The notes under the pieces are model-generated. The model was not told the DNA's origin. It saw only the letters and a program-made list of their open reading frames with translations, and did no database searches. A DNA stretch of 64,000 nucleotides from Candidatus Gastranaerophilales bacterium (GTDB taxonomy: Bacteria > Cyanobacteriota > Vampirovibrionia > Gastranaerophilales > Gastranaerophilaceae), in contig CALUVH010000003.1 in assembly GCA_944324175.1 (NCBI GenBank), forward strand, positions 1 to 64,000, in the 5' to 3' direction. Shown piece after piece: positions 1 through 38,126 of this stretch. Position 1 is the first letter of the stretch. Each line of letters starts with the position of its first letter. The position numbers and the translations under genes are program-made.

Positions 1-90
1 GAAGAAGGGGATGGTGGGAGGTGAAGAGAGAGGCGAGGTGGAAATTTTGGTGAGGGGGGGGGTGGGGGGGGGGGGGGGGGGGGGGGGCTA
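1..90. repeat. G-rich low-complexity stretch with poly-G run at the window edge
   Basis: The first 63 bases are almost only G and A, followed by an uninterrupted run of 24 G at 64-87. In the related cassettes at 17248-17258 and 55208-55218 a G run sits at the same place relative to the downstream hairpin and prepilin gene, but it is 11 G long and has ordinary sequence before it. The first 60 bases here do not match that sequence, so they may be assembly or sequencing noise at a contig end broken by the homopolymer. Confidence 0.6.
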
Positions 91-133
91 TTTAAAGGCT
101 CTATAAGAGGCTTTTCGCCAATAGAAGAAAATA

Positions 134-155
134 ACACAAGTAGAAATACTTGTGT
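134..155 (+). promoter_or_regulatory. Leader stem-loop, GAAA loop (cassette 1)
   Basis: A perfect 9-bp inverted repeat, ACACAAGTA and TACTTGTGT, closes a GAAA tetraloop. It lies 75 bases before the prepilin start. Cassettes 2 and 3 carry the same stem, but the loop-closing pair is swapped from A-T to T-A and the loops are AACG and AGTG. Pairing is therefore kept while bases change, which suggests a functional RNA hairpin. Confidence 0.6.
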
Positions 156-230
156 AAATTGCTATGCAAAAAATTACAGCAATCATATAGGTACACGAAA
201 AGCAGTAATGAAAAAGAAGGAGGTAAAAAT

Positions 231-3697: not shown

Positions 3698-4651
3698 ATG
3701 ATATATTTTTTCTACGGTGAAGAAGAATTTAATATTAGTAATGAGATTGGGAAGCTCAAAAAAACTCTTGATAAGAATTTTCTAGATATGAGTTTTAAGA
3801 TTTACGATAATCCGAAGTTTCCCGATCTCATTTCGATACTTCGTACTCAGCCTATGATGTTTGGGAAAATGCTCATTGTGATTAACTGTCTTGAATATTT
3901 TTCAAAGACTTTTGATGATAAAGAAATTAAGCAAATATCAGAGGCGTTAGAAAATAATACGGACAATTTAGATATTGTATTTGTCGCTCAACTCCCTCGC
4001 GATGAAGGCAAAAAGCTTGATAGCAGGAAAAAATTATTTAAACTGTTGAAAAAATACAACGCTCAGGAATTTCCGACAATTCCTACATATAAAACGGCTG
4101 AATTAGAAGCTTGGGTGCAAAAACAGGCTAAAACAAAGAAAATTAAGCTTGATACAAATGCTTTGCCTGTGCTTATATCGCAGGTCGGAAATAATTTAAG
4201 ACAGCTCGATACCGAGCTTGAAAAGCTTGCACTGCTGGCTTATCCTAAAGATCTTATCAATAAAGATATGGTGCAGGAAATTTGTATTGCGAACGAGGAT
4301 TTGTTTGCTTTCTCAGACTACTTAATGCAAAATGAGAAGTCAAAGGCACTTTTAGAATATAGAAAACTGCTCGACAAAAAGCACCCGCTTGAAATTCTTG
4401 CTGTGCTTCAGACAATGCTAAGACGGTGGATTATTCTAAAATCAAAGGCCTCAGAATGTACGCCAATGGAACTTTCAAGGCTTACAGGTCAGCATGAATA
4501 TGTGGTTAAACTAACTTTGCAAAAATTGAAAAAAACTAATCTCAAAGATTTAGTGCGTCTAAAACAAAGACTTACGGATACAGAGTATAAGCTGAAATCA
4601 GGACAGTTGTTGGATATTGAGCAGGAGGTTGAAAATGCTTTCTTGTACTAG
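3698..4651 (+). CDS. holA: DNA polymerase III subunit delta
   Basis: The 317-residue protein begins MIYFFYGEEEF, the usual HolA N-terminus with its degenerate AAA+ nucleotide pocket, and continues with the domain II/III helices (DTELEKLALL; MLRRWIILKSK). It acts as the clamp-loader wrench that opens the beta sliding clamp. It overlaps the next gene, which also looks like a clamp-loader subunit, by 17 bases, indicating translational coupling. Confidence 0.85.
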   Translation: MIYFFYGEEEFNISNEIGKLKKTLDKNFLDMSFKIYDNPKFPDLISILRTQPMMFGKMLIVINCLEYFSKTFDDKEIKQISEALENNTDNLDIVFVAQLPRDEGKKLDSRKKLFKLLKKYNAQEFPTIPTYKTAELEAWVQKQAKTKKIKLDTNALPVLISQVGNNLRQLDTELEKLALLAYPKDLINKDMVQEICIANEDLFAFSDYLMQNEKSKALLEYRKLLDKKHPLEILAVLQTMLRRWIILKSKASECTPMELSRLTGQHEYVVKLTLQKLKKTNLKDLVRLKQRLTDTEYKLKSGQLLDIEQEVENAFLY

Positions 4652-5510
4652 TGTTTTGTATGAAAAATATCCGTTTTTGATGCGATACTTTGAAAATGGT
4701 GTTAAAAATCCTGATAAAAATATAGCCCATTGTATTTTGTTTTATGGAAACGATATTCAAGCTCAATATGAATTAGCTCTTGAAATAGCACGTATGCTTA
4801 ACTGTACTGGTACTCATTTGCCTGATTGTAATTGCCTTAACTGCAACTGGATTAGAGAAAATAAGCACCCTGCTGTGATTACTATTTCAAAAGTAGACAA
4901 CAAGCCATCTGATGATACATCCAAGACGGTTATTTCTATTGATCAGGCAAGAATGATTAAAAATGATCTGCTCGTCACAAGTGAGTATCATCGGGTTTTG
5001 ATTTTTTGCGATAGGGATGATGATGGAAATGTTTGCGGGCTTAATCAAAATAATTTCCAAGAGCCCACTGCAAATGCCCTTTTAAAAACCTTCGAGGAAC
5101 CTCCGCAAAATACTACTTTTTTCTTTTTGACTAAAGATAAATCAGATATGATATCCACGATTATTTCTCGCGCTCAATCCTTTTTTGTGCCTTCTAAGCT
5201 TGAAGAAAACAGAGAATTTTCTTATGTTAGAGATTTGATGAATGATTATCTTGATATCGAGCGTAATCAGGTTTTAGATTTCAATGATGATATTTTAAAG
5301 CTTATTCAGGAATATGGCGCTTTGGAAATTTTTACTCAAATGCAAGTTTATTTAGAAGAAATGCTTAAGTCAAATATCTATAATCAACATCTAAAAATAA
5401 AATTGATTGAAGACTTAAAAATTCTTGAAAAAGCAAAAAAACAGCTTCAACTCAATATGAATATCCAGACTATCGTCGAAAATTTGGCGTTTGATTTGAT
5501 TTTAAAATAA
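4635..5510 (+). CDS. holB: DNA polymerase III subunit delta' (clamp loader)
   Basis: The start ATG at 4635 is placed by GCAGGAGG at 4621-4628 inside the end of holA, giving 291 residues. Features are an AAA+ N-terminus (HCILFYGNDIQAQYELALEIA, with an imperfect Walker A as in delta'), a Cys cluster (NCTGTHLPDCNCLNC) in the position of the clamp-loader zinc finger, and sensor-type motifs (NALLKTFEEPP; ISRAQSFF). The C-terminal helical domain is short and diverged. The assignment rests on the EEPP and zinc-finger motifs plus coupling to holA. Confidence 0.85.
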   Translation: MLSCTSVLYEKYPFLMRYFENGVKNPDKNIAHCILFYGNDIQAQYELALEIARMLNCTGTHLPDCNCLNCNWIRENKHPAVITISKVDNKPSDDTSKTVISIDQARMIKNDLLVTSEYHRVLIFCDRDDDGNVCGLNQNNFQEPTANALLKTFEEPPQNTTFFFLTKDKSDMISTIISRAQSFFVPSKLEENREFSYVRDLMNDYLDIERNQVLDFNDDILKLIQEYGALEIFTQMQVYLEEMLKSNIYNQHLKIKLIEDLKILEKAKKQLQLNMNIQTIVENLAFDLILK

Positions 5511-5523
5511 GTCATTTATATTT

Positions 5524-6870
5524 TTAGATATCGACGCCACGCATCATGTCAATAAGGGTTTGAATTGTTGTTTCCATTGAAACGCTGTCTGATGTCCTTT
5601 GTTGTAAAAATCCGTTTACCTGAGGCATCATCTCAATTGCAGTATCAAGTTTCGGGTTGGAGCCCGGTTGATACATTCCTACATCAATCAAGTCCTTGTT
5701 TTCTCTATACATTGCAAGGATTTTTCTCATTTTTGCCGCAGCTTCCTTATGCTCAGGTGATGCTATTGCGGACATAAGCCTTGAAATACTTCCTAATACG
5801 TCGATTGCAGGATAGTGGTTGCTTTCTGCAACTTTTCTTGACAAGAAAATGTGACCATCTACAATACCGCGCACAGTGTCAACTATCGGATCGGATATGT
5901 CATCCCCTTCCATTAACACTGTATAAAGCGCCGTGATTGATCCTTTAGGACTGTTCCCAGCTCGCTCCAGAACTTTTTGAAGCCATGAAAAAATTGAAGG
6001 AGGATATCCCTTCATTGTCGGTGGTTCTCCGATAGACAGTCCAACTTCACGACCTGCCATTGCACAGCGTGTAACTGTGTCTGTCATTAAGAAAACTTTT
6101 TTCCCCTGATCTCTAAAATATTCACACACCGCAGTGGCAGTCAATAGGGCTTTTTGTCTTATCAATGGAGGTTGATCCCCTGTTGAACATACCAAAACAG
6201 ACTTTTTCATACCCTCCACCCCAAGTGAATCCTCTACAAATTCTTTTACCTCTCGACCTCGTTCTCCAATCAATGCCATGACGTTTACGTCTGCATCAGA
6301 ATTCCTTGCTATCATCCCAAGCAGTGTACTTTTACCGACCCCTGAACCTGCAAATAACCCTAGACGCTGTCCGCAACCCATTGTCATACAAGAATCTATC
6401 GCCCTTACTCCGGTTGAAAATTGCTCGGTAATTATCGGACGTTCGAAAGGCCCTGGTGGTGGTCCTTCTATTGAGCGCCAAGAGGCACCTGTAATATCCA
6501 TTGGTCTATCGTCTATAGGCTCACCCATAGGGTTAATCAATCGCCCAAGCAAAAAGTCCCCTACAGGTATAATTATCGGTTTTCGGGTTGACGTTACAAG
6601 GCTCCCTTGTCCGATTCCGTTACCGTCTAAAAGTAGTAAAAGCTGAGCTACATCACCTTTAAAGGCAACGACTTCAGCCGGTTTTTTTTCCCCTGTAAAA
6701 GTTTCAATATAGCAAAGATCACCTATCTTCAACCCGGGTAATTTAACTTCAACGGTTAGACCAAGCAACTTTGACACAGTTCCCTTAAATTCATAAAGTG
6801 AAGTCTGCTCAAGTTTTTCATGAACTTGCTGCTTTAAATTTATAAGTCTGCTGTCATCTAAATTGTTCAT
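5524..6870 (-). CDS. FliI/YscN-type export ATPase, standing alone
   Basis: The 448-residue protein is a full-length type III secretion/flagellar ATPase. It has a beta-barrel N-domain, the motif GRLINPMGEPID, Walker A GLFAGSGVGKST near residue 166, GERGREVKEFVED, Walker B FLMTDTVTR, and the family-specific SISRLM. It is distinguished from F1 beta by SIEGPPPGPFERP. In flagellar and injectisome systems this hexamer energises substrate unfolding at the FlhA gate. No FliH, FliJ or membrane export protein lies nearby, but a soluble FlhA C-domain protein is encoded at 34662. A promoter with TATAAT six bases before the ATG suggests a leaderless transcript. Confidence 0.88.
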   Translation of the reverse strand: MNNLDDSRLINLKQQVHEKLEQTSLYEFKGTVSKLLGLTVEVKLPGLKIGDLCYIETFTGEKKPAEVVAFKGDVAQLLLLLDGNGIGQGSLVTSTRKPIIIPVGDFLLGRLINPMGEPIDDRPMDITGASWRSIEGPPPGPFERPIITEQFSTGVRAIDSCMTMGCGQRLGLFAGSGVGKSTLLGMIARNSDADVNVMALIGERGREVKEFVEDSLGVEGMKKSVLVCSTGDQPPLIRQKALLTATAVCEYFRDQGKKVFLMTDTVTRCAMAGREVGLSIGEPPTMKGYPPSIFSWLQKVLERAGNSPKGSITALYTVLMEGDDISDPIVDTVRGIVDGHIFLSRKVAESNHYPAIDVLGSISRLMSAIASPEHKEAAAKMRKILAMYRENKDLIDVGMYQPGSNPKLDTAIEMMPQVNGFLQQRTSDSVSMETTIQTLIDMMRGVDI

Positions 6871-12390: not shown

Positions 12391-12511
12391 TGACCTTGTG
12401 CAAACTTTTTTGAGGGGTATTGAAAATTTTCAAAATAAAGTTTGAGGGGGTGTATTTTTTATGTTATTATACTGCATGTAAATTGTGGTAGAAAACATAA
12501 AGGAAAAGAAA

Positions 12512-14194
12512 ATGAAAAAACTTTCACCGTTGCAAATCGAAAGATTGAAGTATCAGCCTAAACTACCTTCAAGTTTAGCAAAAGGTATCAATTGTTTAGA
12601 ATTAGTTGAAGGCGAAGCTACTCAGTCAGTCAGAGATCAGGAGCAAATAAAGGCTTTGTTTAAAAATACATATGGAAAGCCGGTTGTGACATTCAATTCA
12701 ACTTCTTCAAATAAAGTGTCAGAATTAAGAAATGTCGGTGTAATTTTATCAGGTGGTCAAGCTCCTGGTGGACACAATGTAATTGCAGGATTGTATGATG
12801 CTTTGAAACAAGCAAATTCAGCAAATAAATTGTATGGATTTTTAGGTGGTCCATCAGGTATTATTGATGGTAAATATGTTGAATTTACTGATGAATTTAT
12901 TGATGCATACAGAAATACAGGCGGATTTGATATTATCGGATCAGGCAGAACCAAGCTTGAAACAGAAGAGCAATTTCAAAAAGCACTTGCTGTGTGCAAA
13001 AGCTTAAATATTTCTGCTGTTGTCATAATTGGTGGTGATGACTCAAACACAAACGCAGCGCTTTTGGCTGAATGGTTTGTGAAAAATAATGCTGGTATTC
13101 AAGTTATCGGTTGTCCTAAGACAATTGATGGCGATTTGAAAAATGAACAAATTGAAATTTCATTTGGATTTGATACTGCGACAAAAACTTACGCTGAATT
13201 GATCGGAAACATCCAACGTGATGCAAACTCAGCTAAGAAATATTGGCACTTTATCAAGATTATGGGAAGAAGTGCATCTCACGTTGCATTGGAAGCTGCT
13301 TTACAAACTCAACCTAATATCACATTAATTTCTGAAGAAGTTGAAGAAAAGAAAATGTCTTTAGAAAGTATCATCAATTACATGACAGATATCATTGTAA
13401 AAAGGGCTGATATGGGCAAAAACTTTGGTATTGCAATTATCCCTGAAGGCTTGATTGAGTTCATTCCTGAAATGAAATCTATGATAGCAAACTTAAATGA
13501 TATCATGGCTACTTTGGAAAATGATCCTGATTTTGTAAATGCGACAACAATCAGAGAAAAATTTGACATAGTTGAAAACAGATTAGAAGCTGCAAATGCA
13601 AAGGTATATAATTCTTTACCTGCTTTGATTAAGGAACAATTATTGGCAGACCGTGACCCTCATGGTAATGTTCAAGTATCAAAAATTGAGACTGAAAAAT
13701 TATTAATTGAAATGATTTCTACAAGACTTGATGAATTAAAATCACAAGGGGATTACATAGGCAAATTCTCTGCTCAGTCTCATTTCTTTGGTTATGAAGG
13801 TCGTTGTGCGTTCCCTTCTAATTTTGATGCTGATTATTGTTATTCTCTAGGATTTAATGCTTTTGCATTGATTAATTTTGGACTTACAGGTTACTTATCA
13901 TCAGTAAGAAATTTGACAAAACCTGCTAGTGAATGGCTTGCAGGTGGAATTCCGCTTACCATGATGATGAATATGGAAAAACGCCATGGTGAATTTAAGC
14001 CTGTTATTCAAAAGGCGCTTGTAAAATTAGACGGTCCGGTGTTCAAAGCGCTGGAAGAATGCAGAGCAGACTGGGCGCTTAACGACAGATACTTATTCCC
14101 AGGAGCTGTTCAATATTTTGGACCTTGCGAAGTTTGTGATATTACAACTTGTACATTACAACTTGAAAGAGCTAAAGAATTAGCAAGTGTCTAA
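12512..14194 (+). CDS. pfp: Diphosphate-fructose-6-phosphate 1-phosphotransferase (PPi-PFK, long form)
   Basis: The ATG at 12512 follows AAAGGA. The 560-residue length matches the long, plant-beta-like PFP group. GGDDSNTNA and PKTIDGDLK are the residues that mark pyrophosphate rather than ATP use; [11 protein letters not shown] and SEEVEEK complete the sugar-phosphate site. It interconverts fructose 6-phosphate and fructose 1,6-bisphosphate reversibly, saving ATP in a fermenting cell. It has a single-gene context with a strong terminator. Confidence 0.93.
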
Positions 14195-14531: not shown

Positions 14532-15650
14532 ATGGAACAGGGATATATAGAAAATGGTTTTATCGTTGATGTAAGCAACGCTAAAAAGACTTCAGAGATT
14601 ATTTATCAGTTGAGTACAATATTAGATTTACCAGATGCTCATTGCAAAAAAGTTTGTTTGAAGTTAGGAGATATAGAGCTTTCAGCCTCTGAGCTATTGA
14701 GCATTAAAGCACTAGTTGAATCAATGAATTCAGAAATAGAGTTTGTGACAACACTTTCTCCGGCGACAGTTGATGCTGCTATGGAGATAGGGCTAAAAGT
14801 TTCAGAGTTAGAAAATAAAGTTCAAGCTCCTGATTTTAACCAAGGCGAGGAAGCTGCTCAGGAAACAAATAAGGAGTTAGAAAAAGCACTTGATAAAATT
14901 TTCGGGGATAGTGGACTTGATGAGCCTACGTTTCAGGCAGAAAAAGAGATGAAAAAGTTGAAAGCAGAAACGTCAGACTCAGTTCCTGTGTTGACAGAAT
15001 TTAAAAACGAATCAGAACTTGTAGATGAAGTTATTGACAATATTCAAGTTGTGCAACAGGAGCAGGAAGAACCTGAGATTGCCGAACCAAAGGCTGAGAT
15101 TGCACCTGAATTTAGTGAACATATTCAAACAGCTCAAGTTGAGCAGGAAGAAGAGGAGCAGTTAGAGGAAGAGTTTGCAGAATTAGAAGACTTTAACAAG
15201 CAATTAGAGCAAATTAATAAAGAAGTTGCAAATGCTTATGATTCTGATAGTGAGGATGACTTTTTACAGATACAAAAGAGTTTGCGCGAGACAGAAAAGT
15301 TGCCTACATTATATATTCAAAGGACTTTACGATCAGGACAGAGTATAACAGCTGAGGGTAATATTGTTGTCATAGGTGATGTCAATCCGGGATCTGAAAT
15401 AAAAGCGAAAGGAGACATAACCGTATGGGGAATTTTAGGCGGAATTGCGCATGCTGGATCTGATGGAAATAAATATGCAAGAATTCGCGCTTTGAAAATG
15501 CATGCGATACAACTTCGTATAGCTGATGTTTTTGCTCGTAGACCTGATAGTATAAATATACCTTACATTCAAAAGTCATCGACTTTTGAACCTGAAGAGG
15601 CACGAGTAAAACATAAACAAATAATTATAAGTAAAATGTATGAAAACTAA
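14532..15650 (+). CDS. minC: Septum site-determining protein MinC with long acidic linker
   Basis: The C-terminal 100 residues are a clear MinC beta-helix domain (TLRSGQSITAEGNIVVIGD...GDITVWGILGGIAHAG), which binds MinD and polymerises. The N-terminal 110 residues fit the FtsZ-inhibiting domain loosely. Between them lies an unusually long, Glu/Gln-rich linker (about residues 115-250), making the protein 372 residues against about 230 usually. It is first in minCDE, nine bases before minD. Confidence 0.9.
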   Translation: MEQGYIENGFIVDVSNAKKTSEIIYQLSTILDLPDAHCKKVCLKLGDIELSASELLSIKALVESMNSEIEFVTTLSPATVDAAMEIGLKVSELENKVQAPDFNQGEEAAQETNKELEKALDKIFGDSGLDEPTFQAEKEMKKLKAETSDSVPVLTEFKNESELVDEVIDNIQVVQQEQEEPEIAEPKAEIAPEFSEHIQTAQVEQEEEEQLEEEFAELEDFNKQLEQINKEVANAYDSDSEDDFLQIQKSLRETEKLPTLYIQRTLRSGQSITAEGNIVVIGDVNPGSEIKAKGDITVWGILGGIAHAGSDGNKYARIRALKMHAIQLRIADVFARRPDSINIPYIQKSSTFEPEEARVKHKQIIISKMYEN

Positions 15651-15659
15651 GGAGAAATA

Positions 15660-16475
15660 ATGGACGGTCGTGTAATAGTAATTACATCAGGTAAAGGCGG
15701 TGTAGGTAAAACTACCACCAACGCTAACATTGGTACTGCCCTTGCAAAAGAAGGTAAAAAGGTTGTTATGATAGATACAGACCTTGGATTGAGAAACCTT
15801 GATTTGCTATTGGGACTTGAAAACAGAATTGTATATACAATAGTTGATGTTGTAGAAGAGCGTTGTAAGCTTAAGCAGGCACTGGTAAAAGATAAGAAAA
15901 ATCCTAACCTTTGTCTTTTGGCAGCAGCGCAGACTCGCGATAAAACCGCTGTCACAGAAGAGCAGTTGAAAGATATTTGTGAACAGTTGAAAAAAGATTT
16001 TGATTTTATTTTAGTTGATTGTCCAGCAGGAATTGAGCAAGGCTTTCAAAACGCAGTTGCAGGTGCAAGCGAAGCGATTGTTGTAACAACACCTGAAATG
16101 TCAGCAGTGCGTGATGCCGATAGAATTATTGGACTTCTTGAAGCTAAAGAAGAAATTAAATCATACAAACTGCTGTTGAATAGAGTGCGCCCTAATTTAA
16201 TAAAATCAAATGATATGATGAGCGTAGATGACGTTGTTGAAATACTCTCAGCTGAATTAATCGGTATAATTCCTGAAGATACAGGAATTATCACATCAAC
16301 AAATAAAGGTGAGCCTATCGTAAACGATGAAAAGTCTCTCGCAGGTAAGGCTTATAAAAATGTAGCAAGAAGAATTATAGGCGATGATGTGCCTTTCCTT
16401 AACTTGGAAGAAGATACAAGCTTTGTTGGAAAAATGAAAAAGTTTTTTTCAGGTCTAATGGGTAAGGAGAAATAA
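15660..16475 (+). CDS. minD: Septum site-determining ATPase MinD
   Basis: The 271-residue protein has the deviant Walker A GKGGVGKTTTNANIG, DTDLGLRNLDLLLGLENR, and DCPAGIEQGFQNA. It ends in a basic amphipathic membrane-targeting helix (VGKMKKFFSGLMGKEK). It binds membrane as an ATP dimer, recruits MinC and is released by MinE. One base separates it from minE. Confidence 0.97.
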   Translation: MDGRVIVITSGKGGVGKTTTNANIGTALAKEGKKVVMIDTDLGLRNLDLLLGLENRIVYTIVDVVEERCKLKQALVKDKKNPNLCLLAAAQTRDKTAVTEEQLKDICEQLKKDFDFILVDCPAGIEQGFQNAVAGASEAIVVTTPEMSAVRDADRIIGLLEAKEEIKSYKLLLNRVRPNLIKSNDMMSVDDVVEILSAELIGIIPEDTGIITSTNKGEPIVNDEKSLAGKAYKNVARRIIGDDVPFLNLEEDTSFVGKMKKFFSGLMGKEK

Positions 16476-16476
16476 G

Positions 16477-17013
16477 ATGAAAGAAATTTTTACAGGTCTA
16501 TACAATAAAGTAATTGGCTTTTTCAAGCAAACTGAGCCTGAGGCTAACGCAAAAGATATCGCTTGTAACAGATTGCGTGTTGTTTTGATGCAAGATAGAA
16601 CAAATTTAACACCTGAACTGATGGAGCGTATGCGTAAAGAGCTTGTAGAACTGCTTTCAAAATACGTAGAAATGGACAAGGAAGCACTTGAGCTTAACCT
16701 TGAGCAAGACGGTGATCAAATGGCTTTGATGCTATCAATTCCTGTATTGCGTGCTAAAGATGAGGCTGAAATTGAGCAGGCTATAGCTCAAGAAAAAGCA
16801 GAATCAGATGCCGAAACACAAGAAAATGTAGAAGAAAGCGACTCAGTGCAGGACGACGATAAGAACAATAATGCCCATAAATGTGAAGACTATGACGTGG
16901 AATGCGCAGAATGTAATGAGTGCGAAATATCTGACGATGTTGAATGCGAAATAAAGAAAAAGAAAAAAGCAAATAAAAATACCGAAAAAACAGAAAAAGA
17001 AGACCAAGAATAA
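16477..17013 (+). CDS. minE: Cell division topological specificity factor MinE with Cys-rich acidic tail
   Basis: Residues 25-90 match MinE (NRLRVVLMQDRTNLTPELM...SKYVEMDKEALELNL). The protein is 178 residues, about twice the usual length. The extra C-terminal 85 residues are acidic, contain six Cys in a short span (CEDYDVECAECNEC ... VEC), and end in a Lys/Glu stretch. Metal binding by the Cys cluster is possible but unproven. It is last in minCDE; the terminator at 17057 also begins cassette 2. Confidence 0.9.
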   Translation: MKEIFTGLYNKVIGFFKQTEPEANAKDIACNRLRVVLMQDRTNLTPELMERMRKELVELLSKYVEMDKEALELNLEQDGDQMALMLSIPVLRAKDEAEIEQAIAQEKAESDAETQENVEESDSVQDDDKNNNAHKCEDYDVECAECNECEISDDVECEIKKKKKANKNTEKTEKEDQE

Positions 17014-17421: not shown

Positions 17422-18540
17422 ATGACAAAGAACGAACAAAAGAATTATTCAGCGCGAACTGCGTTTACTTTAGCCGAGGGTGGTCGAAGACCACTTTTGA
17501 ACCTGTGTCAACATAAAAGTGCTTTTACTTTAGCTGAAGTGCTAATCACGCTGAGTATCATCGGTGTGGTAGCAGCCCTGACGATACCAAGCATGATAGA
17601 GAACCATAACAACAAAGCTTGGAAAACTGCAAAAGACTTGTGGGATAAGAAACTTGTGGAAGCAACCCGTCAAATGAACATCGACGGCGTAATGACAGGA
17701 GTAGCAAGCAGTACAGAAGATTACATGAATTATTTTAAGAAGTATGTAAAAGTAATCAAAACCTGTGAAAACGATAAACTAGAAAACTGCTACGCCACAA
17801 AATTTGTGCAAACAGGCGATAAAGAAACAGAAGTAGAAGTAAGCACACTGACAAATGCAAGTGCATTAGGACAAAAAGACTGGAATACAAATACAATGGG
17901 CTTTGTAATAGCAGATGGTACAACAGTAGTCATGGCATACAATCCGAATTGTAGCAGCGTGGACCCATTCAGCTCAGAAGGTCAAAGCGGTCAGGTAGGC
18001 TGCATGAGTATGATGATAGATGTAAATGGTAAGAAAGGTCCAAATAGAGTAGGGGATGATATAGAGCTAAAGAATGCAACAATCTCAACCTGTGATATGA
18101 AGTTTGGCGAGCAGTGTATAGCCGCTAGTGACATCTATCCAACGACAGCAATAAACACCTGCGATGGAAGTGCAGATAGAGAATGGGATGACCGCAACAT
18201 GTCAACTTCATACTGTTCAAATAACCATTGGGCAGGAGCGAAGAAAGCTTGTGCAACAAATGGAATGAGATTACCAACGATGCAGGAATTAGCAGATGTA
18301 GCGACATATATTTACAAACAAGATACTCCGATTGGAGCATATGAAAACCGCCGCAACATAACTCCAGATGCAGACAGAGCAACTCAACTCAACTGGACCA
18401 CTAACGGCTGGCACTATTGGTCGAGTCAGCCCTACGCTAGCGACTGCGCATACAAGCGCAGCTTCAACTCTTCCGAAAGTTACTACTACAGCTACTTCTA
18501 CGTGAGCAGCCCTAACTACCGTGCTAGGTGCTTCAAATAA
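17422..18540 (+). CDS. Prepilin-like protein with C-terminal variable lectin-like domain, copy 2
   Basis: The ATG at 17422 follows AAAGGAGT; 372 residues. The layout is as in copy 1: the incomplete motif AFTLAEGGRRPLLN, then a full prepilin signal and hydrophobic helix (AFTLAEVLITLSIIGVVAAL), a conserved Cys-containing middle, and a 50-residue variable end (QLNW ... RARCFK). Between the two AFTLAE copies the DNA has a GTGGTC-GAA-GACCAC hairpin followed by TTTT, inside the coding region. It is probably processed by a prepilin peptidase and assembled into a pseudopilus or shown at the surface. Confidence 0.87.
   Translation: MTKNEQKNYSARTAFTLAEGGRRPLLNLCQHKSAFTLAEVLITLSIIGVVAALTIPSMIENHNNKAWKTAKDLWDKKLVEATRQMNIDGVMTGVASSTEDYMNYFKKYVKVIKTCENDKLENCYATKFVQTGDKETEVEVSTLTNASALGQKDWNTNTMGFVIADGTTVVMAYNPNCSSVDPFSSEGQSGQVGCMSMMIDVNGKKGPNRVGDDIELKNATISTCDMKFGEQCIAASDIYPTTAINTCDGSADREWDDRNMSTSYCSNNHWAGAKKACATNGMRLPTMQELADVATYIYKQDTPIGAYENRRNITPDADRATQLNWTTNGWHYWSSQPYASDCAYKRSFNSSESYYYSYFYVSSPNYRARCFK
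18385..18531 (+). other. Candidate DGR variable region VR2
   Basis: It has the same pattern of fixed and NNC codons as at 1191 and 56352. Relative to VR3 it has one extra codon between TCTTCC and CGTGCTAGG and differs at most of the putative template-A positions. Confidence 0.6.
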
Positions 18541-29457: not shown

Positions 29458-29564
29458 ATTAAAAATTCTATGTACTTGACAAAACTACATCTACAATATA
29501 TTATTTGTATAAAACAATAAATATATTGTATTAAACAAAATATTGATTTTATTTGGAGGTATTT

Positions 29565-30527
29565 ATGAATAAGAAAATGAAATTTTTGGAAGCGTTTACA
29601 CTTTCTGAGATACTGATTGCTTTGACAGTAATCGGTATAGTCGCAGCTTTGCTTATTCCTGCCCTTGTAAAAAATCAAAATGAAAAAGCTTGGAATACAG
29701 CTAAAAGTACCTTCGAAAAAAAACTTGAAGTGGCATTAAAACAAATGAATACCGAAGAAAAATTGTCGGGTTACTCTTCTACTTTAGATTTTGTTGATGA
29801 ATTAAAAAGATATATAAAAATCACAAAAATATGTGATTATAATGAAATAACAAATTGTTTTTCAAAAGAAGTATATTGGGGTGAAAGCGGAGAGCCTGTT
29901 GATATGTCTAAAATCACAAATGCAGCAGACTTTGGTCAAAGTGATTGGAAAACTAAAACAACAGCGGTACAATTTGCAAATGGTGTAAGTGCGCTAATAG
30001 CTTATAATCCCAATGTCGTTCAAGACCCATATAACAATCAATATGCAGCAACACAAAATGCTATGGCTATTTTATATGATGTAAGCGGATATAAAAATCC
30101 TAATAAAAATGGAAAAGATATAGGAAGTGTGAATGTTAATTCACTTAAACACGAATGCTTTGTCGAATATAACGGATTATGTCTGGGTAAACCATTTTAT
30201 CCACAACCGGTAACTTACGCTGAATGTCAAGCGATGTTTGAAAGTGGTAAATACGGAATAGAAGATGGCTGTGGAGCCGAGAATGATTACTGGGCTGGTG
30301 CAGTAAAAACCTGTGGCAGTACTAAAAACATGCCATCATTTGATGAATATCATTCAGTGAGGTCAAAGGTTGCATCATCTCTGGCAGAAGTACTTGATCC
30401 TAGACCATCATACGAGGCTACAATATGGTTTGGCAGTGGCTATAGGTGTGGATTTTTTTGGTCTCAAACAGGCTCATACGGTTGTAGTAGGGGTAGCTCT
30501 TCTAAAGTAGCTGTGTGCAAAGAATAA
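29565..30527 (+). CDS. Prepilin-like protein, diverged, without a hypervariable end
   Basis: The ATG at 29565 follows GGAGGT; an in-frame TTG 12 bases earlier includes the ribosome site. The 320-residue protein has the prepilin signal AFTLSEILIALTVIGIVAAL, a single AFTL motif, the same middle plan as the cassettes (KAWNTAKSTFEKKLEVALKQMN; NAADFGQSDWKT), and a short lectin-like end (FFWSQTGSYGCSRG...VAVCKE). It lacks the cassette promoter, G tract and terminator. Confidence 0.85.
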   Translation: MNKKMKFLEAFTLSEILIALTVIGIVAALLIPALVKNQNEKAWNTAKSTFEKKLEVALKQMNTEEKLSGYSSTLDFVDELKRYIKITKICDYNEITNCFSKEVYWGESGEPVDMSKITNAADFGQSDWKTKTTAVQFANGVSALIAYNPNVVQDPYNNQYAATQNAMAILYDVSGYKNPNKNGKDIGSVNVNSLKHECFVEYNGLCLGKPFYPQPVTYAECQAMFESGKYGIEDGCGAENDYWAGAVKTCGSTKNMPSFDEYHSVRSKVASSLAEVLDPRPSYEATIWFGSGYRCGFFWSQTGSYGCSRGSSSKVAVCKE

Positions 30528-31457: not shown

Positions 31458-33371
31458 TTGAGTTTATTATCAAACAAAATATATAAAAGAATAGTAATTA
31501 CTTTGGCACTGGCAATAATGGCGTTCCCTTCAAACACTTATGCTGCAAGTGATTTCTGGGGAGAAAGCGGGTCTTCTACAACTTCTGAAGATACTGGAAA
31601 TTATGAGGTTAAGGCTCCTAAAATTATAAAAAGTGTTGAAATTCACGGACTTAATGTGATAAGTCCTGAACTGGTCATGTCTAAAATTAATTTGCATGAA
31701 GGTGATGAATACAATAAAGAAACCTTACAAAATGATTTAAAAAGTATTTATGATCTTGGATTTTTTACAGAGAAAATGAAGGCTATCCCTGTTACAAATT
31801 CCGATGGCACTATAACTTTAAAGATAATACTCGAAGAAAATGCCCCTGTAACTGATTTTACGATAGAAGGTAATACGGTTGTTTCAACAGAGGAAATTTT
31901 ACAATTTTTGTTACCTCTCAAGGGGAAACCACAAAATATTACAGATATAAATAGCGCGATAGTTAAAATACAAAACCTCTATACTGAAAAAGGTTATATT
32001 CTGGCTCGTGTCGATTCAGTTACCGATGACCCTGATGGTACGGTTAACATAGGTATCAAAGAAGGTACAATCGACAAAATAATGATAGCAGGTAACGAAA
32101 AAACAAAAGACTATATTATTGAACGTAACATCCTTACAGAACCAGGTACGGTATATAATGAAAATCAGATAAAAGAAGACCTTGTGAGATTATATGCATC
32201 ACAAGCCTTCAAAGATGTAACCAGAGAAATTGAGCCAAGCACTGAAGATCCTGATATGTATGATATTACTATCAAGGTCGAGGAACAAAGAACAGCTAAT
32301 TTGTCAGTTGGAGCAGGTGTAGATACTGTGACAGGTCTTTTTGGGTCTGTAGGTATAGCTGATAATAACTTTAAAGGACGTAATGAAAGACTTGCCCTGA
32401 ATGTGTTAGCTGGTACAGGTGTAATATTAAATGATGCTTCAATACAAAGACGTATGAATTTGCAAGTGGAATTGAGCTACTACAAGCCATACTTTTTTAA
32501 TGCAGATACATCATTATTGAGTAAGATTTATTATAGAGATTTTGGTAGTTATCAGGTGCCGCTCGCTATTGAACGTAGACTTGGGGCTGAGATGACGGTT
32601 GCTCATAGAATGAAGTTAAATAAACACCTGACTTCCACATTCTCTTTGGGAGCTGAAAATGTCCATGTATCTGAGGGGGATTTCGGAAAAATTTCCAGTT
32701 TGTACAATCGCTACAATGTCCCGATTTCAGAGCGTGCTAAACAGTTAGAAGGCGGTCTGTTCCTGTCATTAAGTCCAGCTATGATTTTTGATACTCGTGA
32801 TAATCAAACTGTTACACGTAAAGGTACAATGGCAAGCTTGCGATTTGATGAAGAAATAGGCTTAGACGGATTTGATAAAACTCACGGAAAATTGACCGGT
32901 ATGATTAAGCAATACATTCCTGTCGGTAAAAAATCATCATTATCATTCACAGCTAAAGGTGGAGGTAAAATTCACGGTGATGAGATGCCTGATGTAATGG
33001 CTTATCGACTTGGTGGTCCATATACAATTAGAGGTTTCAAAATGAGTGGCGTCGGTACTGGTGATGCTTTCATAATGGGATCTGCGGAATTCGCTACACC
33101 AATTCCGTTTTTGGATAGGACAAAAATTAAATTCCTTAATAACTTAAGATTTACTATGTTTATTGATGCAGGTAAAATATTCAATCCTACAATCAGTGAT
33201 ACATTGTATGACAGACCAGGATATGCGGTTGCAGCCGGTGTAGGTTTGAAATTGTATATTCCGGGTATGGGACCATTATCCATCGATTATGGTATTCCGC
33301 TTACCAATTCGGGTGAAAATGGAAGTCCAAACGGATACTTTACTTTTGGTGTAGGCGACTTAATGTACTAA
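31458..33371 (+). CDS. bamA: Outer-membrane assembly protein BamA/Omp85, three POTRA repeats
   Basis: The start is a TTG (31458) after AAGGA; the next ATG would remove the signal peptide (ITLALAIMAFPSNTYAAS). The 637-residue protein has POTRA 1 (KSVEIHGLNVISPELV), POTRA 2 (DFTIEGNTVVSTEEIL), POTRA 3 (KIMIAGNEKTKDYIIE), then a 16-strand barrel with the VRGF-like IRGF motif of Omp85. Three POTRAs instead of five is the cyanobacterial pattern. It implies a diderm envelope. A skp-like gene follows 20 bases later. Confidence 0.92.
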   Translation: MSLLSNKIYKRIVITLALAIMAFPSNTYAASDFWGESGSSTTSEDTGNYEVKAPKIIKSVEIHGLNVISPELVMSKINLHEGDEYNKETLQNDLKSIYDLGFFTEKMKAIPVTNSDGTITLKIILEENAPVTDFTIEGNTVVSTEEILQFLLPLKGKPQNITDINSAIVKIQNLYTEKGYILARVDSVTDDPDGTVNIGIKEGTIDKIMIAGNEKTKDYIIERNILTEPGTVYNENQIKEDLVRLYASQAFKDVTREIEPSTEDPDMYDITIKVEEQRTANLSVGAGVDTVTGLFGSVGIADNNFKGRNERLALNVLAGTGVILNDASIQRRMNLQVELSYYKPYFFNADTSLLSKIYYRDFGSYQVPLAIERRLGAEMTVAHRMKLNKHLTSTFSLGAENVHVSEGDFGKISSLYNRYNVPISERAKQLEGGLFLSLSPAMIFDTRDNQTVTRKGTMASLRFDEEIGLDGFDKTHGKLTGMIKQYIPVGKKSSLSFTAKGGGKIHGDEMPDVMAYRLGGPYTIRGFKMSGVGTGDAFIMGSAEFATPIPFLDRTKIKFLNNLRFTMFIDAGKIFNPTISDTLYDRPGYAVAAGVGLKLYIPGMGPLSIDYGIPLTNSGENGSPNGYFTFGVGDLMY

Positions 33372-33391: not shown

Positions 33392-33838
33392 ATGAAAAAC
33401 TTAAAATTAGCAGCGTTAACAATGGGTGTTATTTTGCTTGGTAGTCAAGCTTTAGCAGGTGGTGTCGGATACATCAACTATCAAAAAGTTCAAAACGGTT
33501 ATCCTTTAGCTCAATCAGCTATTAAGGAAATTGACAGCAAAAGCTTAGAAATTCAACAGTTTATGGTTGATAAAGAAAAACAATACAAAGCTTTAAGCAC
33601 ACCGGTTCAAAAACAAAATTTTGAAGAGACTACTTCACGCGAATTAAAGGCAAAAGAAGATGCTTTAATTAAATTACGTGCTCAAAAAGAAGAATTAATC
33701 TTTAACAAAATTCAAGCAGCAGCAAAGCAAGTACTGGTTGAGCAAAAACTGGATGCGATTGTAGATTATCGTGTAATATTTGTCGGTGGTGTTGATATTA
33801 GCGATTTAGTTATCCAAAAATTAAAGGCTACACCGTAA
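33392..33838 (+). CDS. OmpH/Skp-like periplasmic chaperone
   Basis: The 148-residue protein has a signal peptide ending SQALAGG, then GVGYINYQKVQNGYP and a long charged coiled-coil (about residues 45-110), ending LDAIVDYRVIFVGGVDISDLVI, as in OmpH/Skp proteins. Co-transcription with bamA supports a role in carrying outer-membrane proteins across the periplasm. Confidence 0.85.
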   Translation: MKNLKLAALTMGVILLGSQALAGGVGYINYQKVQNGYPLAQSAIKEIDSKSLEIQQFMVDKEKQYKALSTPVQKQNFEETTSRELKAKEDALIKLRAQKEELIFNKIQAAAKQVLVEQKLDAIVDYRVIFVGGVDISDLVIQKLKATP

Positions 33839-33888: not shown

Positions 33889-34659
33889 ATGAAATATTCG
33901 CAAGCAGGAGAACAGTACCATATCGGACTGAGAGCTGGTGATGTCGGTGATTATGTTATTTTACCGGGGGATCCAAAGCGTTGTGCAAAAATTGCAGCAT
34001 ATTTTGATGATGCCAAACTAATTGCCGATAACAGAGAATATACAACTTATACAGGATATCTCAATGGTAAAAAAGTTAGTGTAACTTCAACAGGTATTGG
34101 TGGACCTTCTGCTGCGATAGCATTAGAGGAATTGGTAAAAGTTGGCGCTAGAAAATTTATTCGTGTAGGTACTTGTGGCGGTGTGGATATCAATGTGAAA
34201 GGTGGAGATGTCGTGATTGCTACAGGTGCAATTAGAATGGAAGGTACCAGTAAAGAGTATGCGCCAATAGAGTTTCCCGCAGTTGCCGATATAGATATGG
34301 TTAATGCTTTGACTCAAGCAGCTAAAAATTTGGATTATAATTATCACCGAGGAGTGGTTCAATGTAAAGATTCCTTTTACGGACAACATGAGCCTGATAA
34401 AATGCCTGTAAGTTACGAACTAAACAATAAATGGGAAGCTTGGAAACGTATGGGATGTTTGGCATCTGAAATGGAATCGGCTGCATTGTTTATTGTATCA
34501 AGTTTTTTGAGAGTAAAAACAGGTTCAGTATTTTTAACCGTAGCAAATCAGGAAAGAGAAAAAAAAGGACTTGAAAATCCTGTGGAACATGACACTGATA
34601 AAGCCATAAAGACCGCGATTGAAGCGATTAAAATTCTAATCGCAAATGACAAGGAGTAG
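33889..34659 (+). CDS. udp: Uridine phosphorylase-type nucleoside phosphorylase
   Basis: The 256-residue protein has [46 protein letters not shown] and [19 protein letters not shown], the PNP/UDP family 1 signature. It splits uridine with phosphate for pyrimidine salvage. The next gene starts two bases after its stop. Confidence 0.88.
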
Positions 34660-34661
34660 AT

Positions 34662-36137
34662 ATGTTTAATAAAAAAATGCAATATGTAATAAAAACATGC
34701 TCAAGTGAGAATGTTCAAGAATTACAAAATTTATTAAATGAGATGTCAATGAACGGTTGGGAGCTTTACAGTATGCATGAAGTAGAAGCTGAGGAGGGCT
34801 TTCAGTATAATTGCATATTCATGAAGGAAGCTCCTGATTATGAGTGCAATTCAAATTCTGACGTGATTAATATTTCGACTTTTAAAAGTCAAATGGAAAA
34901 AATGCTTTCACCAAAACTTACACCTTATGAGATCTGTTTGGAAATTCAGGGAAAAATCAAAGAACAAAAATCTAAAATAGCCCAAATAAAAAAAGAATTG
35001 GAAGGTGAAGCTCCAGCTTCTCAGGGGAGAAAAAAACTTAATGAAAAAATTTCAGCAGGGCTAAAAGAGTTAGATGACCTAAAGGAAAAACTAGCACGTG
35101 CGACATCGCCTGATGAGATGTATGCAAAGCTAAAAACTGAAAAACTTGGTATATATTTAAGTGAGGAGCTTATAGGATATATTGATCCGGAGCAAGATAT
35201 AGGCGAGGAAGAGTTAGTTGCCGAAACAGTTAAGTCTCGGTTAAAACTAACTGAAAAATTAGGGTTTGTAATTCCTAAAATCGTATTTCAAGATGATGAG
35301 GGACTTAACCCTTATGAATTTGCTATAAGGGTTAGAGGACTGGATGTATATAAAGGACTTGTATACCCAAATTATGTAATGTATTTTGAAGAAGATATTC
35401 ACCTCGATAAAAAAATAAAAAACATTATAAAAGATGTGGATGATATAACGGGGAAAAATGTCGTATGGGTTGAAAAAGTACATGCAAAAGATTTTTGGGA
35501 AAAAGGACTTTCAGGAAGTCAGTTTATTGCAAGAGCTTTGGAGTTTGTTTGTGTAAAATATGTAGATGATTTACTCGATTATAACGAACTGGATAAATAT
35601 ATTGAAATTGTTAGTAAAAGAAATGCTTTTCTTGTCGAAAACTTAATACCTGATTTTATTTCATTATCAGATTTAAGGTTTATATTGACAAGTCTTATTG
35701 CTGAAAGAGTTTCAATAAAAGATATTTGCTATATTTTTGAAAAAATGAATGATTATGCTGAAGATAATGTCAAAACAGACATATTAAAAAAAATTCGACT
35801 GGCATTATCAAGACAAATATGTCATCAGTTTGCTGATGAAAGTGGTGTAATTAGTGCATTGGAAATATCAGAAAAAACTTTACAAGCACTTACGGTTGAA
35901 GAATTTGATGAAGGTGATGAAGTTGTAAGGATTGACGCGGATTTTGTTGAACAATTGGCAGAAAAAATACAAAAAAAAGTTTTTGAATTTAATTTAGACA
36001 TGATAAAATTGATTGTTCCAATAGAGTATCGTCAGGTGCTGTTTACAATTTTGAATAATTATTTGAATAATGTAGTAGTTCTTGCTAGAGAAGAAGTAAG
36101 CTGCAATTGTCAGTTAGACATTGTTGCAGAAATATAG
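34662..36137 (+). CDS. Soluble protein with FlhA-like C-terminal domain and DUF4177-like N-terminus
   Basis: The 491-residue protein starts after AAGGAG. Residues 1-56 resemble DUF4177 (LNEMSMNGWELYSMHEVE). A coiled-coil follows (about 95-150). Residues about 165-460 follow the cytosolic domain of the export gate FlhA/SctV: LGFVIPKIVFQDDEGLNPYE, the RGLDVYKG strand, GSQFIARALEFVCVKY, VENLIPDFISLSDLRFILTSL, ERVSIKDICYIFE, and RLALSRQICHQFADESGVI. The eight membrane helices of true FlhA are absent, so it cannot form an export channel by itself. With the lone FliI-type ATPase at 5524 it may be a relic or a repurposed soluble pair. Confidence 0.8.
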   Translation: MFNKKMQYVIKTCSSENVQELQNLLNEMSMNGWELYSMHEVEAEEGFQYNCIFMKEAPDYECNSNSDVINISTFKSQMEKMLSPKLTPYEICLEIQGKIKEQKSKIAQIKKELEGEAPASQGRKKLNEKISAGLKELDDLKEKLARATSPDEMYAKLKTEKLGIYLSEELIGYIDPEQDIGEEELVAETVKSRLKLTEKLGFVIPKIVFQDDEGLNPYEFAIRVRGLDVYKGLVYPNYVMYFEEDIHLDKKIKNIIKDVDDITGKNVVWVEKVHAKDFWEKGLSGSQFIARALEFVCVKYVDDLLDYNELDKYIEIVSKRNAFLVENLIPDFISLSDLRFILTSLIAERVSIKDICYIFEKMNDYAEDNVKTDILKKIRLALSRQICHQFADESGVISALEISEKTLQALTVEEFDEGDEVVRIDADFVEQLAEKIQKKVFEFNLDMIKLIVPIEYRQVLFTILNNYLNNVVVLAREEVSCNCQLDIVAEI

Positions 36138-36170
36138 CAAAAAAAAATTTGTTAGGGTTTTATGTGTGGT

Positions 36171-38126
36171 ATGAGAATTTTAGGAATTAACAATTTTAAT
36201 AGTCAACTTACGTTTAAAGAACGTCCCAAAGGTGAGAAAATTAAAGAATTTCAAGATACCTGTAATGAAGCTTTTGATTATTTAGGAATAGAAAACCGTG
36301 CCATAATTTTGCATGGGTCATGTTTCCCCTCAAATGGTCCTGATATAGGAGTTGGTACTCCCTACTCAAAGGCTGCTGAAGATTTGACAAAAGAGCTTAT
36401 GATGTATGGATTTAATGCTATACAGCTTGGACCATCAGGTGAAATTTCAAGTTTTGATATCTCTCCATATGCTTCAAAAGTTTTTGCGAAAAATCCACTT
36501 TTTATAGACCCCAAAGAACTTACCAGCCCAGAGTATGCGGAAATTTTATCAAAAGAAACTTATGATAATATCACTGATTTGAGTAAGGTCAAGGGTAAAA
36601 ATTATAACTATTCAAATTTTCTTGAGGCTTTTGAAAATATGGATATTGCATTGGAAGAAGCTTACACCACTTTTAAAAATAAACTTAAAGTTGGTGAGCC
36701 TAATGCATTAAAGTTAAATAAAGAATTTTCACAATTTAAGGAAAAATCTAAAGATTGGCTTGTAAATGACGGTATTTTTAAAGTTTTGTCCAAAATGAAT
36801 GGAACTGATGATTTTACTAAATGGGAAAATCAACTTGATGCTGATCTTATTTTACGAATGGAAAAAGGTGATAAGGAAGCGGTAAAAAGGTATAATCAGA
36901 TTGTAAATCGTTCAAAGGATAAGATTGAAAAAAACAGTTTTACGCAATTTTTAATAGATAAACAAATTAAAGAAAATAAAGAATTTAGGGATAAAAACCA
37001 TTTTACCTACATAAATGATTTACTCGTTGGTTGTTCAAAAGCTGATGTTTGGGCAAATAGAGAGGCATTTTTAGATGGATATGCTATAGGATGTCTGTAT
37101 GGCGGTAAAGAGAATTCGCCTCAGGCTTGGGATTTACCAGTGCTTAATCCGAAAAGATTATTTAAAAATGATGGCAGTCTTGATGTTGCAGGGGAATTCC
37201 TTAAGAAGAAACTTATGTCTGCTCTTGAATACTGTGAAACAGTCAGAATTGACCATGCTATGGGACTTGTTGATCCTTGGATATATGAAAAGAATAGCGT
37301 ATATGAATCAAATGGTGTTATTCGCAGCATAAAAGGCGATTATATTTCAAATATGTATCATGTTGATTCAGAAGGTAATTATAGAAAAATTCTGGAGAAG
37401 ATTATTCTACCAACATTGAAAGAAAAAGGTGTGGATACAAGTAATGTGGTATGGGAAGATTTGGGTTCTCAGTCAGGTGTATTTCAAGAAATTTATAAAC
37501 ACAAGTATAATCTGCCAGGTATAAGTCAGCTAGAATGGTGTAAGGCAGAAAATGCTCGATATGAAAATACATCTTTGATAACTTCTCATGATTCACCTCC
37601 TACTATGCATTTGGATTTGAATAGTTTTGATAAGGACTACCTCAGTGGTTTTTTGATACCTGATCCTGCTAAAGCTAAAGAAAATAAAGAGTTTAAACAA
37701 ACTATTTCCAATAATCCAATAGAATTGGTAATGGCTAAGTTTGTTGAGTTATTCAGGAGTAGTAAAAATATTCAACTCTCATTTGCGGATTTCTTTGCAA
37801 TTGAAAAACGATATAATGTTCCCGGAGAAAAGAATGATACAAACTGGAAATTACGAATGAATAATAATTATATTGATACATATTATAAAAATTTATCTAG
37901 TGAAAAACCTACTGCGCCTAATATTCCTGAATTGTTAAGTCGTGCAGTGCAGGCAAAGATTGATATGGCTGTTGCTAAGAAAAATGACAAATCGCCTCAA
38001 GAAGCAGATGCATTAAGAGAAAGATTGAATAGAGAAGCTAACCCCCTAATCAAACATCTACAGGATTTAGCAGCTTTTCTAAAACGACCTGAGCCTGTTG
38101 ATGATAATCTCGATATAGCTGCCTAG
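36171..38126 (+). CDS. GH77-like 4-alpha-glucanotransferase
   Basis: The start at 36171 (MRILGINN) is preferred over 36162 because it gives the leader signature seen in other proteins; neither has a good ribosome site. The 651-residue protein follows GH77: ILHGSCFPSNGPDIGVGTPY near the N-terminus, DISPYASKVFAKNPLFIDP, the nucleophile region CETVRIDHAMGLVDPW, acid/base VVWEDLG, and ITSHDSPPT. A roughly 100-residue helical insertion lies near 155-260. It probably rearranges maltodextrins in glycogen metabolism. Confidence 0.8.
   Translation: MRILGINNFNSQLTFKERPKGEKIKEFQDTCNEAFDYLGIENRAIILHGSCFPSNGPDIGVGTPYSKAAEDLTKELMMYGFNAIQLGPSGEISSFDISPYASKVFAKNPLFIDPKELTSPEYAEILSKETYDNITDLSKVKGKNYNYSNFLEAFENMDIALEEAYTTFKNKLKVGEPNALKLNKEFSQFKEKSKDWLVNDGIFKVLSKMNGTDDFTKWENQLDADLILRMEKGDKEAVKRYNQIVNRSKDKIEKNSFTQFLIDKQIKENKEFRDKNHFTYINDLLVGCSKADVWANREAFLDGYAIGCLYGGKENSPQAWDLPVLNPKRLFKNDGSLDVAGEFLKKKLMSALEYCETVRIDHAMGLVDPWIYEKNSVYESNGVIRSIKGDYISNMYHVDSEGNYRKILEKIILPTLKEKGVDTSNVVWEDLGSQSGVFQEIYKHKYNLPGISQLEWCKAENARYENTSLITSHDSPPTMHLDLNSFDKDYLSGFLIPDPAKAKENKEFKQTISNNPIELVMAKFVELFRSSKNIQLSFADFFAIEKRYNVPGEKNDTNWKLRMNNNYIDTYYKNLSSEKPTAPNIPELLSRAVQAKIDMAVAKKNDKSPQEADALRERLNREANPLIKHLQDLAAFLKRPEPVDDNLDIAA

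Follow-up and report, generated by a model that had tools for sequence, protein, structure and literature searches.

Gut Melainabacteria are mostly uncultured and have been described as flagellated or as having lost their flagella. Two of them, MEL.A1 and Ca. Gastranaerophilus phascolarctocola, have incomplete flagellar gene sets; the shared genes listed for them are flgG, flgC, fliF, fliH, flhA, fliI, fliP, fliQ, fliR, and flhB, and two genes are named flhA (PMC3787301, PMC4040986). The closest systems described in other bacteria are (i) that of the non-flagellated Lysobacter enzymogenes OH11, which is reported to keep export genes of the FlhA/FlhB/FliI type for a role outside flagellar motility (PMC9927559), (ii) the non-flagellar type III secretion system (NF-T3SS) of Myxococcales ('Myxo'), which has no secretin and was once annotated as a relic (PMC3459982), and (iii) the flagellar-type FliI, FlhA, and FliF of the non-motile Chlamydia pneumoniae, where FliI binds the cytosolic domain of FlhA (PMC2830194). 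By the definition of Abby and Rocha, the flagellum-specific genes fliE, flgB, and flgC are absent from NF-T3SS (PMC3459982). A search of open-licence papers returned no work on type III secretion or soluble FlhA in the Gastranaerophilales group, and no description of two parallel export systems or of a soluble FlhA cytosolic domain (FlhA-C) in these bacteria. We know of no description of a soluble FlhA-C subunit as a part of any T3SS.

The window analyzed here, a stretch of 64,000 nucleotides, lies on contig C3 of a metagenome-assembled genome (MAG) of the order Gastranaerophilales (G000; 1.68 Mb, 38 contigs, 97.3% complete) and contains a gene for a FlhA-C protein, hereafter solo (Table 1). 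The open reading frame is intact, starts with ATG, and encodes 491 aa; it is not a chance frame, since it is conserved almost throughout the order. A sequence-only reading of the locus had described a FlhA/SctV cytosolic domain without the membrane channel, and this description was upheld. The Pfam FHIPEP profile matches residues 136-482 with its positions 321-655 of 657 (E 3.8e-47), thus covering the cytosolic domain in full and leaving out the membrane part entirely, and the NCBIfam FlhA profile matches residues 134-491 with 152 bits, below the equivalog cut-off of 772. No membrane segment was detected in solo, in which no 19-residue window reaches a Kyte-Doolittle value of 1.6, compared with eight such stretches in full FlhA. 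In a phmmer search against PDB, FlhA cytosolic domains ranked on top (B. subtilis 3mix, 2.1e-21), and all significant matches were FlhA/SctV proteins aligned in the cytosolic domain. The predicted structure matches FlhA-C as well: the AlphaFold2 model, a single chain built from 24 orthologues (mean pLDDT 81), aligns with the nonameric FlhA-C 7amy over 339 residues (Z 29.8, rmsd 3.0) and with 3myd (Z 29.4), and has the full four-subdomain FlhA-C fold.

The same reading had proposed a fused DUF4177-like domain. The N-terminal domain is present, spanning residues 6-56 in the full-length model, and its model built alone shows a beta-alpha-beta-beta arrangement (pLDDT 89); the match to DUF4177 (PF13783) is weak, with E 0.021 and 15.5 bits, below the Pfam gathering score of 25 bits. 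This profile is matched at E<=0.1 by 15 of 24 solo orthologues, with a best value of 3.2e-4. Searches of PDB with the domain gave no significant relative by fold and chance-level matches only by profile. The C-terminal domain of KCTD5, although the best structural neighbor (Z 6.3), was within noise and was rejected as kin. The promoter and terminator scan at the solo locus gave no excess over shuffles.

Table 1. Features of the solo locus and of other genes in the window
Feature	Position	Residues	Strand	Basis
solo FlhA-C gene (491 aa)	34662..36137		+	profile matches, AlphaFold2 model
solo, N-terminal beta-alpha-beta-beta domain, DUF4177-like	34662..34847	~1-62	+	weak Pfam match, model
solo, disordered linker		61-80		model
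solo, helical hairpin		88-147		model
solo, FlhA cytosolic domain		~144-491		profiles, AlphaFold2 model
FliI-type export ATPase (448 aa), FliI of system B	5524..6870		-	profiles, orthologue position
BamA-like outer-membrane protein gene, conserved neighbor of solo	31458..33371		+	sequence resemblance
Skp/OmpH-like periplasmic chaperone gene, conserved neighbor of solo	33392..33838		+	sequence resemblance
nucleoside phosphorylase (Udp-like) gene	33889..34659		+	sequence resemblance
4-alpha-glucanotransferase (MalQ-like) gene, conserved neighbor 24 bp downstream of solo	36162..38126		+	sequence resemblance
minC-minD-minE	14532..17013		+	
phosphofructokinase gene, upstream of minC	12485-14194			

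Solo descends from the FlhA of one of the two export systems distinguished below, system B. In a maximum-likelihood tree of FlhA-C with 61 rows, the solo proteins form a single clade (SH-aLRT 100) inside a clade with support of 100 that holds the system-B FlhA, apart from system-A FlhA, other members of the phylum, and E. coli FlhA; branches are far longer in the solo clade than in system-B FlhA. A solo relative was found in 117 of 117 order genomes searched, and none was found outside the order among 386 genomes sampled across the phylum. All order genomes but G000 show a further FlhA match, which among the matches listed is mostly a full FlhA of ~700 aa. Solo was not found in G119, G120, and G028 (the last only 83% complete), though the system-B FlhA is present there. 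Thus, solo seems not to be strictly needed by system B, and the dependence looks one-way.

Within the genus, NG86 estimates for solo are dN ~0.04-0.13, dS 0.6 to saturated, and dN/dS ~0.03-0.08, and those for system-B flhA are dN ~0.004-0.017, dS ~0.5-1.1, and dN/dS ~0.01-0.02; these values are rough, and most solo pairs are saturated for YN00. Purifying selection acts on both genes and is extreme for the gate protein. These data bear on one of the two explanations offered by the sequence-only reading, a reduced flagellar relic, according to which the gut lineage lost its flagella, with the solo FlhA-C and FliI as remnants that are disappearing. Such decay would agree with a genus without flagellin or MotB matches, with the missing full flhA of G000, and with the partial flagellar gene sets of gut Melainabacteria (PMC3787301, PMC4040986). 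However, the solo frame is intact, both solo and its parent flhA show low dN/dS among congeners and persist across the order, where solo is near-universal, and rod, gate, ATPase, and C-ring genes are kept too. On the dN/dS values and the distribution we rejected the relic explanation; it is largely refuted and, in our judgment, very unlikely to be correct.

The two systems are distinguished by FliP, which is short in system B (open frame of ~213-241 aa) and long in system A (~253-289 aa). Most or all genomes compared in this work are MAGs, so that absences are soft. Among 39 genomes tested, short FliP occurs in all, every flagellin-less one included, whereas long FliP is confined to flagellin-positive genomes, of which 20 out of 21 have it, and was not found in the other 18 (Fisher p 3e-10, kinship among genomes ignored). 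The sole flagellin-positive genome without long FliP is a 92% complete MAG. The genomes with the MotB plug and those with flagellin are the same 21. From these distributions, system B persists when flagellin and the stator are lost, and because it is kept in lineages without both, it probably serves protein export rather than acting as a motor. The second explanation of the sequence-only reading, a repurposed cytosolic machine, is not supported in the sense of a machine that has no gate in the membrane: FliP is present in all 39 genomes, and the solo-bearing order genomes, the incomplete G000 excepted, show a second FlhA match.

In G007, system B forms one cluster on a single contig, which reads FlgG-FlgG-FlgB-FlgC-lytic transglycosylase-FliE-FliF-(two FliG-like)-FliH-FlhA-FliI. 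The lytic transglycosylase gene between flgC and fliE (L044:485-1102, minus strand; SLT, E 1.6e-34) has a relative that adjoins fliE in G111 (L045:19107-19763, minus strand); such an enzyme in the cluster is as expected for a machine crossing the cell wall. A conserved exported-looking protein of 187-199 aa without a Pfam match (L066:299-862, minus strand; L067:11666-12250, plus strand; L045:10016-10615, plus strand) has its gene divergent from FliMN-FliOPQR in two congeners; in G111 the gene lies close to system-B flhA. The protein is a candidate accessory part. The rod-domain search in flagellin-less genomes showed no rod-domain ORF of ~450 aa among the matches listed. Outside the order, eight genomes of family f8 of the same class have one FlhA match each and no flagellin match, and the four of these FlhAs that were placed in the tree are B-type; the genome G368 (f9) has both FlhA types and flagellin. 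Of the 386 genomes in the phylum-wide sample, 185 gave no match at all. The NF-T3SS (injectisome) label was considered for system B and ruled out by the published rule, as fliE, flgB, and flgC are present, FliE being found in congeners and FlgB and FlgC in G000. System B is better called a filament-less flagellar-type exporter.

The absence of channel genes noted by the sequence-only reading holds within the window and not for the genome. A genome-wide search located FliP at C19:2678-3253, adjoined on the same contig by FliMN, FliO, FliQ, and FliR, as well as FlhB at C6:15941-16966 and, on contig C29, FlgB, FlgC, and two FlgG-like rod genes. Neither flagellin (PF00669) nor the MotB stator (PF13677) gave a match in G000 or its five congeners. 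Only a block of ~6 kb, fliE-fliF-(fliG)-fliH-flhA, is absent from G000. A complete separate flhA, which the sequence-only reading had named, together with a full flagellar or injectisome gene set, as evidence that would count against it, is present in all five congeners and at genus level does count against that reading; none was found in G000 by profile search. The FliE-FliF-(FliG-like)-FliH-FlhA operon is intact in the congener G079, and in G079 and G117 it lies upstream of minC, where G000 has a phosphofructokinase gene. For the gene that follows fliF, the name FliG-like rests solely on its position and on weak matches to MgtE_N (0.002) and FliG_C (0.093). A 163 aa relative of this protein is encoded alone beside a MinD/ParA-like gene on contig C1 of G000 (L095:11537-12028, minus strand).

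A true loss of this block, with solo replacing FlhA-C in a gate made of FliPQR and FlhB only, would account for the failed profile search and for the behavior of a 19 kb probe from G079, which finds no trace of fliF, fliH, or flhA in G000, yet does match the min and tig-clp-polA flanks there, on two contigs (C3 and C6). Against such a loss, G000 is an incomplete MAG in many contigs, G102 has the operon at the end of a contig, in G052 it stands alone, beside a pilin-like gene, on a contig of 7.1 kb, and G000 carries multiple copies of the pilin-like gene that adjoins the operon in G079. A contig-end position and a multi-copy pilin-like neighbor are the kind of setting that yields binning gaps. 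Since all five congeners have flhA, the absence is probably an assembly or binning gap, and we consider true loss highly improbable. Multi-copy type IV pilin-like genes with an 'FTLAE' N-terminus are spread throughout G000, for example at 17422-18540 and 29553-30527 of the window, and one pilin-like gene has >20 matches in this genome.

The complete FliI-type ATPase that the sequence-only reading placed at 5524 was confirmed: the 448 aa frame is intact, scores 555 bits with the FliI/YscN subfamily profile (cut-off 379.5), and matches T3SS_ATPase_C with E 1.6e-27. Its orthologue adjoins the parent system-B FlhA in G007, G124, and G126, and we therefore assigned the window FliI to system B. Linkages of solo itself to export genes were found in a subset of genomes. 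In G007, solo is immediately followed by fliJ, a fliK-like gene, flgD, and flgE; its distance to system-B flhA is 15-16 kb in G007, G013, G093, and G111; and system-B fliR is within ~8 kb of it in G014, G091, and G107. These linkages are partial and could be coincidence, yet they agree with the tree.

In most genera of the family, the gene order is rsmI-bamA-skp-udp-solo-malQ. Both bamA and skp are just upstream of solo in 75 of 93 loci, and skp, bamA, udp, and malQ all occupy these positions in 62 of 93; in the window the udp stop precedes the solo ATG by 2 bp on the same strand. The FlhA-C fold might accordingly have been co-opted to work, from the cytosol, with the outer-membrane protein pathway of Bam and Skp, which would explain this conserved arrangement and the close spacing to udp. 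However, Skp and BamA act outside the cytosol, the udp and malQ neighbors are metabolic, and in the deep families (f2-f7) solo sits elsewhere, once in a flagellar cluster and with no conserved neighborhood common to the deep lineages, while the protein is still kept. We regard this recruitment as rather improbable. Still, the bamA-skp-udp-solo-malQ clustering in most of the family counts against the export role proposed below, as does the finding of solo without a full flhA in G000, and solo may have a role in envelope assembly.

In Salmonella, the GYXLI motif drives the domain motions of FlhA-C, and a dimple binds chaperone-substrate complexes (PMC10965912). Both regions are altered in solo, as revealed by comparison of 28 solos with 33 full FlhAs (E. 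coli numbering). Of the 47 positions conserved in at least 90% of full FlhAs, 50% or more of the solos retain 26, whereas the other 21 are retained by fewer. Core residues such as R391, G399, P403, W465, D553, R579, and E676 are invariant. In the GYXLI motif (368-372), Gly368, present in all 33 full FlhAs compared, is replaced by Ser in 25 of 28 solos, and position 370 is Glu in all 28; further conserved residues lost are His491, Pro646, Cys650, and Tyr674. The chaperone dimple retains Asp456 in 26 of 28 solos, but F459 is changed to T or S and T490 to R or E, and the neighboring H491 to A or N. These losses suggest that solo has the docking platform and not the known switch; with the GYXLI glycine and most of the dimple lost, it should not cycle like a normal FlhA-C.

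Other channel-less FlhA-C proteins were found in the phylum. A 413 aa protein from another class (G130, L241:4315-5556, minus strand) combines HTH_17 (E 1.4e-11) with FlhA-C (E 6.9e-49), and its gene is divergent from fliP-fliQ-fliR-flhB; it is likely a transcription regulator with FlhA-C as the sensor. This protein falls outside the solo clade, on a long branch whose exact place in the tree is unsure, so FlhA-C was probably freed from the channel more than once. Shortened FlhA-C-like proteins of 212-335 aa without the middle and C-terminal subdomains occur in three flagellin-less Gastranaerophilales that also have solo (L238:3972-4979, L239:4424-5062, and L240:4183-4863, all plus strand); the L238 protein has two membrane-like segments, and all are on long branches with an exact tree place that is unsure. 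Two adjacent diverged FlhA-like genes in G144 (L242:2651-3754 and 3841-5577, minus strand) encode proteins of 367 aa and 578 aa, the former with an N-terminal hydrophobic segment followed by FlhA-C.

Solo might be a negative regulator, a decoy drawing export chaperones, FliJ, or substrates off the gate, which thereby sets the timing or amount of system-B secretion; the HTH-FlhA-C protein of the other class would be an independent regulator on the same idea. Such a role would draw on the docking of chaperone-substrate complexes by FlhA-C (PMC10965912), on the core fold and Asp456 retained in solo together with loss of the switch motif, and on the position of the HTH_17 fusion next to the gate genes. 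The remaining dimple changes (F459, T490, H491) make chaperone binding of the known kind doubtful, and the HTH fusion groups elsewhere than with the solo proteins. We consider a decoy function unlikely.

The best reading of these data is that solo is no remnant in decay and that it is maintained as a component, or as a regulator, of a secretion machine. More specifically, we propose, with confidence about evenly balanced for and against, that it is a soluble docking, sorting, or regulatory subunit of the filament-less flagellar-type exporter. Solo would have a single origin, no later than the base of Gastranaerophilales: the system-B FlhA cytosolic domain was presumably duplicated without the membrane channel and joined to the small N-terminal domain. 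System B, comprising FliE, the MS-ring, FliMN, FliHI, the gate, and rod genes, is kept in lineages without flagellin and the MotB stator, and the cytosolic FlhA-C would serve it as an extra docking or sorting element. It may contact the ATPase side (FliI/FliH/FliJ) or substrates, or it may insert into or cap the FlhA ring, and the N-terminal domain could be an adaptor that FlhA lacks. A locked adaptor or a substrate-retaining regulator seems more likely than a spare gate subunit. The data establish the fold of solo, its lack of membrane segments, its descent from system-B FlhA, its distribution, the purifying selection on it, and its lost motifs; that it physically associates with system B, and in which sense it acts there, is inferred.

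Taken together, the observations permit a broader and more tentative reading, which we find plausible but hold with less than even confidence. An ancestral second rod-bearing apparatus without filament, stator, and possibly hook may be a dedicated secretion machine throughout this class of non-photosynthetic Cyanobacteria, to which Gastranaerophilales added a soluble FlhA-C subunit; FlhA-C may then be a detachable substrate-sensing module in the phylum, as the HTH-FlhA-C fusion beside fliPQR-flhB suggests. If so, the 'partial flagellum' of these bacteria is a separate, strongly conserved export machine, and a secretion route into the gut is hidden by current annotation; the HTH fusion would tie the status of the export gate directly to transcription. 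A natural soluble FlhA-C also offers a clean way to probe the FlhA docking ring apart from the channel, a role that, to our knowledge, is usually approached only with cut-down constructs.

Comparison with the known systems shows the following. Solo shares the four-subdomain fold and the invariant core residues with FlhA-C of the flagellar export gate, and differs from flagellar FlhA in the absence of the membrane channel, in the additional N-terminal domain and helical hairpin, and in the changed GYXLI glycine and dimple. MEL.A1 and Ca. G. phascolarctocola belong to the same order, and their gene sets were read as a reduced flagellum, whereas here they correspond to two export systems and a soluble FlhA-C; one of the two genes listed as flhA is presumably solo. 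Lysobacter enzymogenes OH11 likewise keeps export genes without flagella; as far as the excerpted source goes, its genes are not a parallel second system, and no soluble FlhA-C is mentioned there (PMC9927559). FlhA of Chlamydia pneumoniae keeps the membrane domain that solo lacks. System B and the Myxo T3SS both have the gate, ATPase, and inner ring without filament and stator, and the hook too is absent from the Myxo T3SS and possibly from system B; the Myxo systems lack FliE and FlgB/FlgC, whereas system B has all three (PMC3459982).
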